From the NCBI RefSeq assembly GCF_009833125.1, contig NZ_QRCC01000001.1, positions 310,001 to 374,000 of the forward strand: a DNA stretch of 64,000 bases. The letters are read 5' to 3'. Shown here piece after piece: positions 7,310-13,230 of the stretch. The notes below the pieces were generated by a model. That model was not told the DNA's origin. It did not search any database and worked only from the letters and a program-made list of their open reading frames with translations. Position 1 is the first letter of the stretch, and the number at the start of each line of letters is the position of its first letter. A program made the translations under genes and the position numbers. Origin of the DNA: Nitrosomonas sp. HPC101 (lineage in GTDB: Bacteria > Pseudomonadota > Gammaproteobacteria > Burkholderiales > Nitrosomonadaceae).

Positions 7310-8257
7310 TTATACCACCCCACCCTGGGCAGCCTCGGCATCACATCCAGCTTCCAGCTCAAAAACGGAATCATCGTCATGATCCATATCAACAACCGAG
7401 GCACCGGGAAAGGACTCTTCATCAAATGCCTTGTCACCTTCTTCAGTTGCGATACCGTGAGGCCTGATTCCGATAAAATCATATCGACTGGTATCCGCCA
7501 GGTGCGAAAGCTGAATATTCTGTAAGGCAGTGAATATTGTTTCAAGTCGCCCTGGATGTCTTTTATCCCATTGCTGCATCATTTCCTTGATTACCTGCCG
7601 CTGCATATTCGGCTGTGAACCACACAAATTACAGGGAATGATAGGAAACTGAATAAGCTGAGCATAAGCAGCCAGATCCTTTTCCTTACAATACGCTAAC
7701 GGCCGGATCACCACATGACAGCCATCATCGCTCACCAGTTTGGGAGGCATTGCTTTCAGCTTGCCCCCGTAAAACATGTTCAGAAAAAAGGTCTCCAGAA
7801 TATCATCACGATGATGTCCCAAGGCAATCTTGGTGGCACCCAGCTCAGTCGCCACCCGGTACAGCACACCTCTGCGCAGACGGGAACACAGGCTGCAGGT
7901 CGTTTTCCCCTCTGCGATCACCCGCTTTACAACACTATAAGTATCCTGTTCCACAATACGAAAGGGCATCTTTATTTCTGTCAGATAGCTCGGCAATACA
8001 TGTTCAGGAAAGCCCGGCTGTTTCTGATCCAGATTGACAGCAATCAGCTCAAAATTCAATGGTGCATGCGCCTGTAGATTGCGCAGAATATCCAGCAATG
8101 CATAACTATCTTTGCCACCAGACAAACATACCATGACCCGATCATCCTTCTCGATCATGTTGAAATCAGCGATAGCAGTTCCAACAAGACGCCGCAATCG
8201 CTTGCGCAATTTGTTGGCGTTATAATCGGCCTTTCTGGAAAATGCTTCTGTAGCCAT
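7310..8257 (-). CDS. ttcA: tRNA 2-thiocytidine(32) synthetase TtcA
   Basis: A 315-residue ATP-pyrophosphatase that thiolates C32 in the anticodon loop of some tRNAs. The PP-loop SGGKDS is at residues 46-51. Two CxxC pairs, C121/C124 (CSLC) and C209/C212 (CNLC), are the iron-sulfur cluster ligands of Ttc[15 protein letters not shown] is also conserved. The tail after about residue 275 is acidic ([13 protein letters not shown]) and looks family-variable. It is convergent with lipA with 9 bases between stops. Confidence 0.95.
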
Positions 8258-8412
8258 ATTGGATTCCGGATATACGTGATAAAGAATACAAATGAAAACT
8301 AAATGAGGATAAATGGAATCAGAATGCAGAGAAATGTTCGTGTAGCATTAACATCTCTTCAGGCGAAACGACACCTGGTAATTCCGGTGTTCTGTCCACA
8401 ACAGAGGAACAT

Positions 8413-8865
8413 ATGAAGACAACTTTGATCGTATCTCTCATACTTTCTTGTTTAGGATTCGCCGGTGCTTATGCTACAACAAACCACAGCCACGCGGCAA
8501 TTGGTAAGCCTGGCGTTCAGGAAAACGTCACACGCACCATTAGACTCGAAGTATACGAATACCGCTTCTCACCCTCCGAGATCGATGTCAAACAAGGTGA
8601 GACCATCCGATTCATCGTCAAAAACACAGGGAAAAAGAAACATGAAATGATGATAGATACTATGCAACGTCTTAGAAAGCATGAAAAAATGATGCGCGAG
8701 CACGATCATGGGGCACATACTGAACCCAATCAAATAATACTCGAACCTGGTGAAGAAAAAGAGTTGATATGGCATTTCACTCAAACAGGGGCTGTTGACT
8801 TCGCTTGTCCAATCCCCGGTCATTTCAAAGGAATGCGAGGCAAAATCATTGTGGAGAGCAAATGA
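8413..8865 (+). CDS. Periplasmic cupredoxin-domain protein
   Basis: A 150-residue exported protein: a signal peptide to about residue 20, then a plastocyanin/azurin-like cupredoxin fold. Candidate type 1 copper ligands are H77 (KKKHEMM), C132 (FACPIPGHFKGM), H137 and M141, the normal order and spacing. An extra His/Met-rich loop at about 84-102 (with REHDHGAHTE) could bind further copper. A GAGGAA ribosome-binding site precedes the ATG. Its stop overlaps the next start (ATGA), so it is translated with the DUF411 gene and probably the cytochrome. Likely role: electron carrier or copper chaperone in the periplasm; which one cannot be told from sequence. Confidence 0.9.
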   Translation: MKTTLIVSLILSCLGFAGAYATTNHSHAAIGKPGVQENVTRTIRLEVYEYRFSPSEIDVKQGETIRFIVKNTGKKKHEMMIDTMQRLRKHEKMMREHDHGAHTEPNQIILEPGEEKELIWHFTQTGAVDFACPIPGHFKGMRGKIIVESK

Positions 8866-9389
8866 AAAAACAATTTAACAGATTCTTTACCCGTTCCTTG
8901 CTGACAATCGCACTAACAGGCATTGCCAGCACAGCAGTTGCTGCAACCATGGAAGTATATAAAAGCCCAACCTGCGGTTGTTGTGCTAAATGGGTGGACA
9001 TTATGCGCGACAACGGATTTACCGTGAACATCCATGATACAGGTAATGATGATGCCAGAGCAGAAGCCGGTATCTCCACCGAACTGGGCTCGTGTCATAC
9101 GGCCATGGTGAATGGCTATGCCATAGAAGGACATGTTCCGGTTGATGACATCAAACGTCTGCTGAAAGAACGTCCGAGAGCAGTCGGTCTGTCAGCCCCT
9201 GGAATGCCTCATGGCTCCCCCGGCATGGAAACCGGGCGTGTTGATTCTTATAATGTATTGCTGATCAGAAAACCCGGAGATAAACGCAGCGCAGCAGAAA
9301 TCTATAACCAATATGGCCCGGGTAAATCGCAGCAAATAAATAAAACACCCGAGAACAGCACCACTGAATCAATTCTAAGACTTAAGTAA
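8862..9389 (+). CDS. DUF411 metal-binding protein
   Basis: Start chosen at ATG 8862, which overlaps the cupredoxin stop (ATGA) and begins a clear signal peptide (MKKQFNRFFTRSLLTIALTG); the frame is open further upstream but inside the cupredoxin gene. The 175-residue protein has the DUF411 hallmark CGCC (C38-x-C40-C41) in YKSPTCGCCAKW, a thioredoxin-like start, and a later conserved cysteine in LGSCHTAMVNGY. DUF411 proteins are often found in copper and metal resistance clusters and are thought to handle copper in the periplasm. The C-terminal 35 residues are polar and probably disordered. Confidence 0.92.
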   Translation: MKKQFNRFFTRSLLTIALTGIASTAVAATMEVYKSPTCGCCAKWVDIMRDNGFTVNIHDTGNDDARAEAGISTELGSCHTAMVNGYAIEGHVPVDDIKRLLKERPRAVGLSAPGMPHGSPGMETGRVDSYNVLLIRKPGDKRSAAEIYNQYGPGKSQQINKTPENSTTESILRLK

Positions 9390-9390
9390 C

Positions 9391-9876
9391 GTGATATCTG
9401 CAAGAGCCGTAGCGCTTATATCATTGCTGCTTATCGCCGCCTGTTCGGAACAGACTGATACCCATCCGACAGGCGGCAATACCCTGGATCGCATTCTTGG
9501 CAGAAACGTATCTCCGGAACAAATCACGCGCAATTTTGACCCTGACCAAATTGCGCGTGGCCAAATACTTTTCCAGAAAAATTGTGCGGTATGTCATGGC
9601 CGGAATGCAGAGGGTACTCCAGATTGGCGCAAGCCACTGGAAAACGGCAGATATCCGCCACCGCCACTCAATGGCACAGCACACGACTGGCATCATTCCA
9701 CCGAAGAACTAAAGCGCTTCATACTGAAAGGCGGTCCTCCGGGAGAAGGACGCATGCCTGGCTGGGAAGGCATTCTTAAAGACCAGGAAATTGATGACAT
9801 CCTGGTATGGATCAAGTCCCTGTGGCCGGATGAAGTCTATCAGGGCTGGTATACCAGAATCGAAAACAGACCATAA
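9391..9876 (+). CDS. Lipoprotein monoheme cytochrome c
   Basis: A GTG start one base after the DUF411 stop begins a lipoprotein signal ending LLIAAC (lipidated Cys18). The mature part holds one heme-binding CxxCH (NCAVCHG) and a later methionine in EGRMPGWEG as likely sixth ligand, so it is a class I monoheme cytochrome c of 161 residues. The tight spacing says it is made with the cupredoxin and DUF411 proteins, which suggests electron or copper transfer among the three at the outer face of the membrane. No close functional subtype is recognised. Confidence 0.9.
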   Translation: MISARAVALISLLLIAACSEQTDTHPTGGNTLDRILGRNVSPEQITRNFDPDQIARGQILFQKNCAVCHGRNAEGTPDWRKPLENGRYPPPPLNGTAHDWHHSTEELKRFILKGGPPGEGRMPGWEGILKDQEIDDILVWIKSLWPDEVYQGWYTRIENRP

Positions 9877-9878
9877 TT

Positions 9879-9904
9879 TAACCCGGTGCAAGAATTCCGG
9901 GTTA
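9879..9904 (+). terminator. Possible terminator hairpin after the cytochrome gene
   Basis: An 8-bp stem (TAACCCGG with CCGGGTTA) and a 10-base loop start 2 bases after the cytochrome stop. There is no clear T-run after it, so it may instead protect the 3' end of the mRNA. Confidence 0.4.
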
Positions 9905-10103
9905 TTCGAAAAATCCAGTACAGCAATCGGATACAATGCATAAAATGTTCTATGACCGGACGATTAAAAGAATGCATTTCATAGAAACCCTCTAAAATTC
10001 GATTGCCCAGAACATCACTAAATCGAGAGGTCAGGTATCGAAATTTGCCTGAAAACAAATTTCTAACGATACTCATACATTAATTATTTTACGGATAAAC
10101 GAT

Positions 10104-10340
10104 ATGGACTATTCCTACGAATCGGAGCACACAAAATTCATGCGGGAGTTGCTTGCCAGCCGACCCGACCTCATCAAGAAACAGGAAGAAGCACGCGCGA
10201 TCTGGTGGGATAAAAAGGTCGATCGGGAAGCATTAAAACGCTTCAAGGAAGCTAGAACGCCACAAAAGAGCTATGTTTATTTTTCATGGCCGGAACCGAC
10301 CAAGGAGCAGACGAAGCAGGAGAAAAAAACAGAGGAATAA
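10104..10340 (+). CDS. DUF3460 family protein
   Basis: A 78-residue basic, helical, soluble protein that opens MDYSYESEHTKFMRELL and has the IWWDKKVD motif typical of DUF3460, a small family common in Betaproteobacteria. Function unknown. It lies alone between the copper trio and tRNA-Arg. The C-terminal 20 residues are charged and low complexity. Confidence 0.85.
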   Translation: MDYSYESEHTKFMRELLASRPDLIKKQEEARAIWWDKKVDREALKRFKEARTPQKSYVYFSWPEPTKEQTKQEKKTEE

Positions 10341-10503: not shown

Positions 10504-10579
10504 GCGCCCATAGCTCAGTGGATAGAGTACCGCCCTCCGAAGGCGGGGGTCGCACGTTCGAATCGTGCTGGGCGCGCCA
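10504..10579 (+). tRNA. tRNA-Arg (anticodon CCG)
   Basis: A 76-base cloverleaf with an encoded CCA. The acceptor stem GCGCCCA/TGGGCGC is perfect, the D arm is GCTC/GAGT, the anticodon stem CCGCC/GGCGG holds the loop CTCCGAA (anticodon CCG, reading CGG), and the T arm GCACG/CGTGC holds TTCGAAT. A TATAAT lies at 10396-10401, about 100 bases upstream. Confidence 0.97.
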
Positions 10580-10714: not shown

Positions 10715-11983
10715 TTATTTTCTCTCAGCCTGCAATTCCAACAATGCTACATAGTGGGATAATACGTCCTGGCCGGGAACATCCAACATTTCCTCAATGA
10801 AGTGCTGTCGATGCGATTCGATGTAATAAGACTGGTAACCGTTTGCAAGAAACTCACTTATTTTCTCATAAACATCATCACGACACCGCAGCTCGGTTTC
10901 CGGCATATATAGCGCTGCGGCAGAGCGGCCTGTATGCAAATAATCCGCAGCCAAGACAGGTTTTCCTACTCGAATGGCTTCATACGCAACCGAAGTCGCC
11001 AGATCGATGATGACATCAGCCCATGCCAGCAAATGCACAGAATGAGTCCCATCTTCAATCATGGTGACATTCTTGAGTCGCCGTAATGCGGCACTCTTCG
11101 TCAAGGATTGCTTCCAACCACCGCGGGTGTGCGGTTTAATCGCCAATTCCACACCAGGAAAAGCTGCGATCATTTGAACCACCTCTTCCACCTCCTCCCA
11201 GAATGTCGTGAAATTGGCTTTTCTCAAAAAAATCACAATTTTCAGTTGACTATCGGAACGTACCAATGGCGATGAAGGCATAAGGGTGACTAATTTAGTC
11301 AACCATTCCTCGCAGTAGCGCGGCGATCCTAATACAGTGAGTTTCTGATCATCCATAAAAGGACGAAAACGCTTGGCACACAATTCATTGGGCACAATGA
11401 CCTTATCAAACATTCCCGCTGCTGAGAAAGATCTATCCGGCTTTAGTTGCCATTCACCACGCCTGATTAATTGACTCGCATGAGGACTATCACCGTGAGG
11501 AAGCGATACTGTTCCCAATCCTTGATTACGTGCTACGCCTACCAGAATTTCCACCCATTCAACACAGATTTCTGAATTTCTCTCAATCCAATCGAAAACA
11601 ACCACCCCTTTCCCGAGATCGGGGAAGCTTCTCTCCAGCAAACGCCAGGTAGTGGACAACCAAATCGCTTCACGTCGTTTTGCGTTATACACATGTGCCA
11701 ATAACTTGACGAGTGGCCCCAGAAATGATTGATACGAACTTCTAACAAGTAATAGTGTTTGTAAACGCCATTTCGTAAATTCCGAAAATGACAATAAATC
11801 CCGAAGATGAGCAAACCGAACACCATCCAGTTGTTTTAGAAACTCGATACGATAATCTCCATCAAACCGTTTCTTACCGATCATAACAATATCGCATACA
11901 TAGCCACGTTCGATCCATTTAGAGATCACCGGCGTAATATGATCGATATCGTTATAGTGGCGTAGAAAAAAAAGGGCTTTCAT
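10715..11983 (-). CDS. Glycosyltransferase-like / surface-polysaccharide synthesis protein
   Basis: A 422-residue soluble protein with two Rossmann-like halves. The second half has features of the GT-B type families that include CDP-glycerol glycerophosphotransferases and capsule synthesis proteins: VSLPHGDSPHAS in the middle, IKPHTRGG, then DGTHSVHLLAWADVIIDLATSVAYEAIRVGKPVLAADY, where the sugar- or polyol-nucleotide usually binds. The exact donor is unknown. It is the last of three minus-strand genes next to tRNA-Arg. A broken paralogue lies at 12856-13230 on the other side of the FkbM gene. Upstream spacing to the FkbM gene is 53 bases, so one transcript is likely. Confidence 0.7.
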   Translation of the reverse strand: MKALFFLRHYNDIDHITPVISKWIERGYVCDIVMIGKKRFDGDYRIEFLKQLDGVRFAHLRDLLSFSEFTKWRLQTLLLVRSSYQSFLGPLVKLLAHVYNAKRREAIWLSTTWRLLERSFPDLGKGVVVFDWIERNSEICVEWVEILVGVARNQGLGTVSLPHGDSPHASQLIRRGEWQLKPDRSFSAAGMFDKVIVPNELCAKRFRPFMDDQKLTVLGSPRYCEEWLTKLVTLMPSSPLVRSDSQLKIVIFLRKANFTTFWEEVEEVVQMIAAFPGVELAIKPHTRGGWKQSLTKSAALRRLKNVTMIEDGTHSVHLLAWADVIIDLATSVAYEAIRVGKPVLAADYLHTGRSAAALYMPETELRCRDDVYEKISEFLANGYQSYYIESHRQHFIEEMLDVPGQDVLSHYVALLELQAERK

Positions 11984-12855: not shown

Positions 12856-13230
12856 CTACCAACCGTCTCTATTGCCTTTGACACCACTCTCAAGCAAGAC
12901 GATATAACGAGACAGCACATTTGGCCCGGATACATCGAGCATTTCTTTCAGGAAACGTTGCCGATGCGCTTCAACATAAAAATCATTACAACTTCCTGAA
13001 AGAAATTTATCTATTTTTTCATATACATCATCACGGCAACGTAATTCAGCTTCTGGCATATAAACCGCTATAGCGGAACGCCTGCATGTAGGTAATCTGC
13101 AGCTAAAACGAATTTCTTAAGCTTGGCAGCTTCAAACACCACGGAATAATGCAGCTATCATATGAACCACTGCATTTACTGTTTCCCAGAAGGTCGTAAA
13201 ATTAGCTTTCCTCAGAAACATAATCTTACG
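12856..13230 (-). pseudogene. Broken paralogue of the 10715-11983 glycosyltransferase-like gene
   Basis: The minus strand still encodes pieces closely matching the intact neighbour: KIMFLRKANFTTFWETV (intact: KIVIFLRKANFTTFWEEV), then VLAADYLHAG, then MPEAELRCRDDVYEKIDKFL (intact: MPETELRCRDDVYEKISEFL) and a C-terminus ending in a stop at 12856. Three lesions are visible: everything before KIMFLRK is gone, some 55-60 residues between VVHMIAA and the VLAADY segment are deleted, and a single base is missing near 13080 (GG-CGT against GGC-CGC in the intact copy), which shifts the frame. It ends 25 bases before the FkbM start. It records an ancestral order glycosyltransferase-FkbM-glycosyltransferase. 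Confidence 0.85.

Follow-up and report, generated by a model that had tools for sequence, protein, structure and literature searches.

What might a cupredoxin, a DUF411 protein and a lipoprotein-like cytochrome c do together in an ammonia-oxidizing bacterium, when their genes are packed end to end? The question is raised by a locus of Nitrosomonas sp. HPC101 located in the window analysed here, which is a 64,000-nucleotide stretch of contig NZ_QRCC01000001.1 (positions 310,001 to 374,000; coordinates below count from its first letter). The answer that we favour, with a probability of about 0.75, is that the genes form a copI-copG-copJ operon that handles copper or gives copper tolerance in the Nitrosomonas periplasm. 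An initial annotation had described the trio as a possible periplasmic copper relay or electron path with no defined function. The first part of that description is partly supported, in that it fits the homology and genomic context presented below. The second part fails at the level of families, because the proteins are of the CopI, CopG and CopJ types found in a known copper-resistance cluster. The families are therefore known, and what is new is their compact arrangement, which is typical of these ammonia oxidisers.

Three protein families in a conserved arrangement

There are three genes in the locus, all on the forward strand, and a motif within the third is central to what follows. The frames, spacing and domains given initially for these genes agree with the open reading frames (ORFs) and Pfam matches.

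8413 to 8865, + strand: copI-type cupredoxin, predicted to be exported, 150 residues; Pfam PF13473 and PF00127, and identity to pMOL30 CopI
8862 to 9389, + strand: copG-type DUF411 protein, predicted to be exported, 175 residues, with C38-G-C40-C41; PF04214 and PDB entries 6wis/6wje
9391 to 9876, + strand: copJ-type monohaem cytochrome c, 161 residues, GTG start, lipobox-like N-terminus (Cys18); PF13442
9661 to 9696, + strand: PPx5HxWHH motif of the cytochrome (H98, W100, H101, H102), coding for PPLNGTAHDWHH; match to a DNA pattern

The cupredoxin and DUF411 genes overlap by four nucleotides (ATGA), and a single nucleotide separates the DUF411 stop codon from the GTG start codon of the cytochrome gene. 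Signal-peptide-like N-termini can be recognised by eye in the translations of the first two genes. The sequence supports both this operon-like layout and the assignment of each protein to its family. The names copI, copG and copJ follow published usage (PMC12029693, PMC11647585; papers are cited throughout from excerpts), although naming is not uniform, in that copG designates a P-type ATPase at one point of a paper that elsewhere gives copFGJ as a transcript (PMC9045368).

The cupredoxin scores above the cut-offs of Pfam Cupredoxin_1 (PF13473) and Copper-bind (PF00127), and is 44% identical over 156 columns to CopI encoded by plasmid pMOL30 of Cupriavidus metallidurans CH34. The candidate type 1 copper ligands H77, C132, H137 and M141 are invariant, as residues, in 19 aligned rows that include pMOL30 CopI. 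The His/Met-rich loop spans approximately residues 77-102, with four His and four Met within the 40 residues after HEM, and thus the residues initially pointed out for a type 1 site and such a loop are indeed present, as is the CGCC of the DUF411 protein. This ligand set and a His/Met-rich region have been described for CopI, together with an N-terminal His-rich region that varies (PMC13308877). CopI is a periplasmic plastocyanin-like protein whose loss renders Rubrivivax gelatinosus copper-sensitive (PMC7558416), and its excerpted descriptions name no copJ partner. The window protein differs from it in that H25 and H27 are the only histidines of the N-terminal region. In addition, certification of CopI by an NCBIfam equivalog model was rejected, as the scores are below the cut-offs of both NF051440 (101 of the 280 bits needed) and NF047895 (73.5 of 200). 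For this reason we use the label CopI-type.

The DUF411 domain scores above its Pfam cut-off (PF04214, E value 1.3e-26, 92.5 bits against 27), and the protein is 41% identical to pMOL30 CopG over 96 columns. It also matches PDB 6wis/6wje (E value 1.2e-25), which represent a Pseudomonas aeruginosa protein called CopG (PMC7558416). The two share the DUF411 fold family and a CxCC sequence, but the C-terminal tail of the window protein is longer. CopG is described there as resembling thioredoxin and carrying a tetranuclear copper cluster, and a role in oxidising Cu(I) and handing on copper has been proposed for it (PMC7558416). Residues C38, C40, C41, M115 and M122 are invariant in 19 DUF411 rows, and CxCC is present in all 56 DUF411 proteins of the genus that reach that far (54 CGCC and two CKCC). 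As a separate observation, the best DUF411 match in a plasmid collection (55.5%) is found on a Salmonella plasmid (L102, 5986-6441) between insertion and resistance genes, and no cytochrome or cupredoxin is annotated in the surrounding L102 stretch.

On pMOL30 the same three families are encoded side by side, with copG followed by copJ and with HxWHH in the cytochrome. However, copI is convergent there, and the copG-copJ pair follows the P-type ATPase gene copF inside a large cop cluster, whereas the window presents copI, copG and copJ in colinear order without efflux genes. The N-terminal stretch of pMOL30 CopJ, judged from its sequence, lacks the lipobox carried by the window cytochrome. Among the open-licence literature matches listed, as far as their excerpts go, there is no study of a copI-copG-copJ operon in Nitrosomonas.

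The DUF411 gene is present in 58 of 61 genomes of the genus, including that of HPC101, and the three genomes without it (G009, G039 and G042) are 89, 97 and 84% complete. There are 57 loci available for inspection, with G014 left out (contig end), and 56 of these are testable for CopI, as L012 is truncated where its contig ends. In all 57 loci a cytochrome gene lies downstream of DUF411 and in the same direction, at a distance of -4 to 68 nucleotides, and copI overlaps DUF411 by exactly four nucleotides in 43 of the 45 loci that carry it. The gene order is thus far beyond chance and is by no means peculiar to one strain. A collection of 80 named loci, retrieved by a search with the cytochrome and drawn for the most part from these same genomes, has DUF411 just upstream of the cytochrome in every case, with copI in 65, absent from 13 and cut by a contig end in two. 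The closest named record to the window cytochrome is from Nitrosomonas eutropha (88%), and the remaining 79 are from Nitrosomonas, Nitrosospira, Nitrosovibrio and metagenome bins, several of which are labelled only to family, order or Proteobacteria. The most similar CopI seen in a relative is that of Nitrosomonas europaea (L078/L203, 89%).

CopI is missing or decayed in 11 of the 56 testable loci. Remnants of the copI 3' end are visible by eye upstream of DUF411 in L042, L077 and L080, and the remnant in the genome of L042 (G053) contains seven in-frame stops. Among the 45 copI genes, two look damaged (an in-frame stop in L039 and a shortened gene in L051), both in draft assemblies. We considered whether a copy elsewhere replaces the lost gene and rejected this idea, as a further CopI match is found in just two of the 11 genomes (one in G053 and two in G001, all elsewhere) and in none of the other nine. 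Because copI has been lost repeatedly while copG and copJ were kept, the CopG-CopJ pair looks like the retained core, with CopI as an accessory.

A cytochrome group with an HxWHH motif

The cytochrome matches PF13442 (Cytochrome_CBB3, E value 6e-13) as well as PF00034, and its haem site CxxCH occupies residues 65-69. A lipobox-like LIAAC, read by eye, ends at Cys18, and a lipobox pattern is present in 56 of the 57 cytochromes of the genus, which is consistent with the membrane-anchored lipoprotein that had been proposed at the outset. In a single comparison with pMOL30 CopJ, the identity is 36% over 107 columns (E value 2e-25). CopJ is a gene name, with no curated family behind it, and the excerpted sources describe the protein just as a putative cytochrome c (PMC12029693, PMC11647585). 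Residues C65, C68, H69 (the haem ligand) and M122 are invariant and common to the Nitrosomonas cytochromes and pMOL30 CopJ. Thus, the CxxCH and distal Met characteristic of class I cytochromes c are both found, while support from the fold is weaker. A search of the predicted structure (predicted local distance difference test score of 77.8, 31 sequences) against the PDB returned no matches at an E value of 0.001 or below, and the best hit, a cytochrome cL, is a weak one (E value 1.4e-3, template modelling score 0.47).

The four positions of the HxWHH motif (H98, W100, H101 and H102) are likewise common to the Nitrosomonas cytochromes and pMOL30 CopJ, and the motif is invariant in 57 of 57 cytochromes of the genus. 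Besides these, the window protein has just two histidines, H69, which binds the haem, and H25, which is not conserved. In the model, the motif is located just before a helix formed by residues 104-113, and the class I fold would place it near the haem edge. In the alignments shown for CcoP chains, the Trp is retained in the first haem domain, whereas the His pair is not. There is a single match to PPx5HxWHH in the window, with zero expected from shuffled sequences.

Beyond the genus, there are 73 places in 63 of 398 genomes of the phylum, as counted from the result table, where the DNA pattern PPx5HxWHH occurs. A reversed control pattern occurs at 14 places, and therefore some of the 73 matches are due to chance. 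For 30 of the places, loci extending 1.5 kb to either side were available, of which three have no recognisable cytochrome, leaving 27. A copper-gene homologue lies within 1.5 kb of 16 of these 27 motif cytochromes compared with none of 30 ordinary PF13442 loci (Fisher p 2.3e-7). This comparison includes related genomes, which do not count as independent, its controls are the top-scoring PF13442 members, and matches to ATPases and sensor kinases need not be copper-specific. The queries, drawn from pMOL30 and two roseobacter plasmids, were P-type ATPase, multicopper oxidase, CueR, CopB/C/D/G/I/R/S, Sco and DUF411, and one of the 16 positives (L179) is almost identical to the cluster of pMOL30 from which queries were taken. 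DUF411 itself is within 1.5 kb in seven of the 27. A further 20 larger regions were chosen partly for a nearby DUF411 gene, and no rate is drawn from them.

The two roseobacter plasmids (Marinovum L098 and Pseudosulfitobacter L100) carry DUF411 followed by an HxWHH cytochrome, either directly or past one small ORF. These differ from the window in that genes for a multicopper oxidase and a BNR/sialidase-like protein precede DUF411, a P-type ATPase gene follows in Pseudosulfitobacter, the motif reads PPHDxTGHTWHH, and no CopI is annotated in the stretches examined. On a tree of cytochromes the HxWHH label is clustered, requiring two changes compared with a shuffled mean of 24.8. This might reflect one origin of the HxWHH cytochromes, on a tree built from few columns and with long branches. 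Within Nitrosomonas, a 40 kb stretch of contig C1 of genome G001 (L310-L311, 1-40000) contains two copJ genes, one copG and two copI, along with genes for a full multicopper oxidase, copB, two P-type ATPases and two copRS homologues. The conserved copG-copJ pair is located on another contig (C2) and is additional to this copper run. Collectively, these findings provide a new lead, which is a cytochrome group, defined from sequence, with a fixed HxWHH motif that goes with copper genes.

Copper handling and alternative roles

We consider copper handling to be the most probable role because each of the three proteins has its homologue in a single copper-resistance cluster, because their ligand residues are conserved and the motif cytochromes are associated with copper genes, and because copJ and copG copies in G001 sit among copper-resistance homologues. 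Copper induction of related genes is a further reason. The cop cluster of CH34 pMOL30 is almost completely copper-induced, with a common start site for copGJ (PMC7563307), and in P. aeruginosa exposed to copper the cupredoxin PA2807 and the DUF411 protein PA4714 are induced 10.1-fold and 16.2-fold, respectively (PMC6444534). The roles of CopI and CopG in copper tolerance as reviewed (PMC7558416), and the loss of CopI from 11 of 56 loci where copG and copJ stay, are also among the grounds for this reading.

By analogy with their relatives, CopI and CopG probably bind and buffer Cu(I) and Cu(II) outside the inner membrane, wherein CopI would act through its cupredoxin site and His/Met loop and CopG through a copper cluster on CxCC. 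The membrane-anchored CopJ might then take up an electron as Cu(I) becomes the less toxic Cu(II) and pass it to the respiratory chain, such that copper would be detoxified without an O2-using multicopper oxidase, with CopG-CopJ as the core and CopI as the accessory. We regard this electron-exit function of CopJ as a tentative hypothesis. Slightly more doubtful is its specific form, in which CopJ would be a dedicated cuprous-oxidase cytochrome whose HxWHH motif binds copper by the haem, takes electrons from CopG-held Cu(I) and feeds the respiratory chain. If this were true, CopG-CopJ would detoxify copper by serving as an electron exit independent of any multicopper oxidase.

There are 15 genomes, 11 without copI at the locus and four with it, that were chosen for a search of other copper genes. 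A CopA-type multicopper oxidase scores over the cut-off in five of the 15, a copper ATPase in 14, and weaker matches to other multicopper oxidase-like proteins are found in all 15. Seven of the 11 copI-less genomes have neither a CopA-type enzyme over the cut-off nor another CopI, and a cuprous-oxidase CopJ could be the main exit in these. The idea that CopG-CopJ substitutes for a multicopper oxidase was rejected as a general rule, as the five genomes with a CopA-type enzyme include that of HPC101 and no simple pattern emerges. CopI and CopG reportedly matter most when oxygen is scarce, and a conserved cytochrome with a fixed His motif is a concrete candidate for the electron acceptor in Cu(I) oxidation. 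Because ammonia oxidisers rely on copper enzymes and are often found where oxygen is low, the operon would tie copper handling to nitrification.

Several observations weigh against copper handling as described. No copper-gene homologue is present within 1.5 kb of 11 of the 27 motif cytochromes, and the HxWHH motif is found within 1.5 kb of none of the 30 best-scoring DUF411 loci in the phylum sample, which indicates that CopG is usually without a CopJ neighbour. No efflux or copper-sensor gene lies beside the operon in the Nitrosomonas loci compared. Nor is the operon the sole copper system of HPC101, whose genome (2.5 Mb in 31 contigs) also encodes a full CopA-type multicopper oxidase and two copper ATPases. 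Most other CopI proteins of the genus have only zero to two His in the 40 residues after HEM, and their loops are poorer in His and Met, so the rich loop is not a genus-wide feature. Finally, the near-universal retention of DUF411 in the genus could also mean that the operon has a housekeeping role.

This last point leads to an unlikely alternative, namely that the operon supplies copper rather than detoxifying it. It would hold and load copper for periplasm-facing enzymes such as ammonia monooxygenase, copper nitrite reductase and cytochrome oxidase, and the cytochrome would set the copper redox state. Nitrosomonas, Nitrosospira and Nitrosovibrio share a heavy demand for copper enzymes, and the operon is found in 58 of 61 Nitrosomonas genomes and also in the other two genera. 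A copper ATPase encoded elsewhere in 14 of the 15 genomes searched, and a CopA-type multicopper oxidase in five, would likewise suit a supply function, as would the proposed transfer of copper from CopG to other cuproproteins (PMC7558416). However, motif cytochromes outside this family lie with resistance genes (multicopper oxidase, CueR, P-type ATPase and CopC/D), and a search with a small set of reference genes recognised neither a Cox-assembly nor an amo gene next to the operon.

An improbable explanation is that the trio is a plain electron-transfer unit whose task is not copper tolerance, with the cupredoxin and cytochrome feeding an oxidase. The ligand set of CopI is that of a cupredoxin that transfers electrons, and AcoP of Acidithiobacillus ferrooxidans, here compared by description only, is a single-domain cupredoxin that works with a cytochrome c (PMC4059628). 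However, AcoP is encoded with cytochrome oxidase genes, and its excerpted description mentions no DUF411 partner (PMC4059628), whereas no oxidase gene is seen beside the operon. DUF411 relatives are also copper-induced (PMC6444534). Furthermore, a carrier of this kind fits poorly with the loss of CopI from 11 of 56 loci that keep the rest, nine of which are in genomes with no other CopI. We know of no electron-carrier role for DUF411 proteins.

That the genes are accidental neighbours forming no functional unit is scarcely credible, since the dispensability of copI and the 0 of 30 DUF411 genes sampled elsewhere with a nearby motif cytochrome are set against the invariant DUF411-cytochrome order in 57 loci, the 43 of 45 four-nucleotide copI overlaps, and the recurrence of copG-copJ adjacency on pMOL30 and two roseobacter plasmids.

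Upstream region and neighbouring genes

One additional feature had been proposed in front of the operon.

8371 to 8390, no strand: inverted repeat ACACC-N10-GGTGT, proposed operator, unsupported by shuffles and relatives

The repeat exists as first reported, but its role as an operator was rejected, because it is neither above chance nor conserved. The 155-nucleotide leader contains three repeats of this type (arm of 5, spacer of 6-14) compared with a mean of 1.37 in shuffled sequences, 19% of which reach three. For a spacer of 10 alone, one repeat is observed and 0.15 is the shuffled mean. In N. europaea L078/L203, neither arm is intact. A promoter scan of positions 8240-10110 identified two sigma-70-like sites, which is below the shuffle mean of 3.7, and both are inside genes, so that no promoter for the operon was found in this region.

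The upstream neighbour is divergent and encodes a PP-loop protein, which we take to be ttcA, and the downstream neighbour is a DUF3460 gene as judged by Pfam. Further downstream, a tRNA-Arg (CCG) gene is located at positions 10504-10579 of the forward strand, and the listed ORFs that overlap it are probably not genes. On the reverse strand, a 67-residue ORF (12856-13059) resembles by eye the C-terminal end of a 422-residue protein encoded at 10715-11983 on the same strand, and is perhaps a truncated duplicate of that end.
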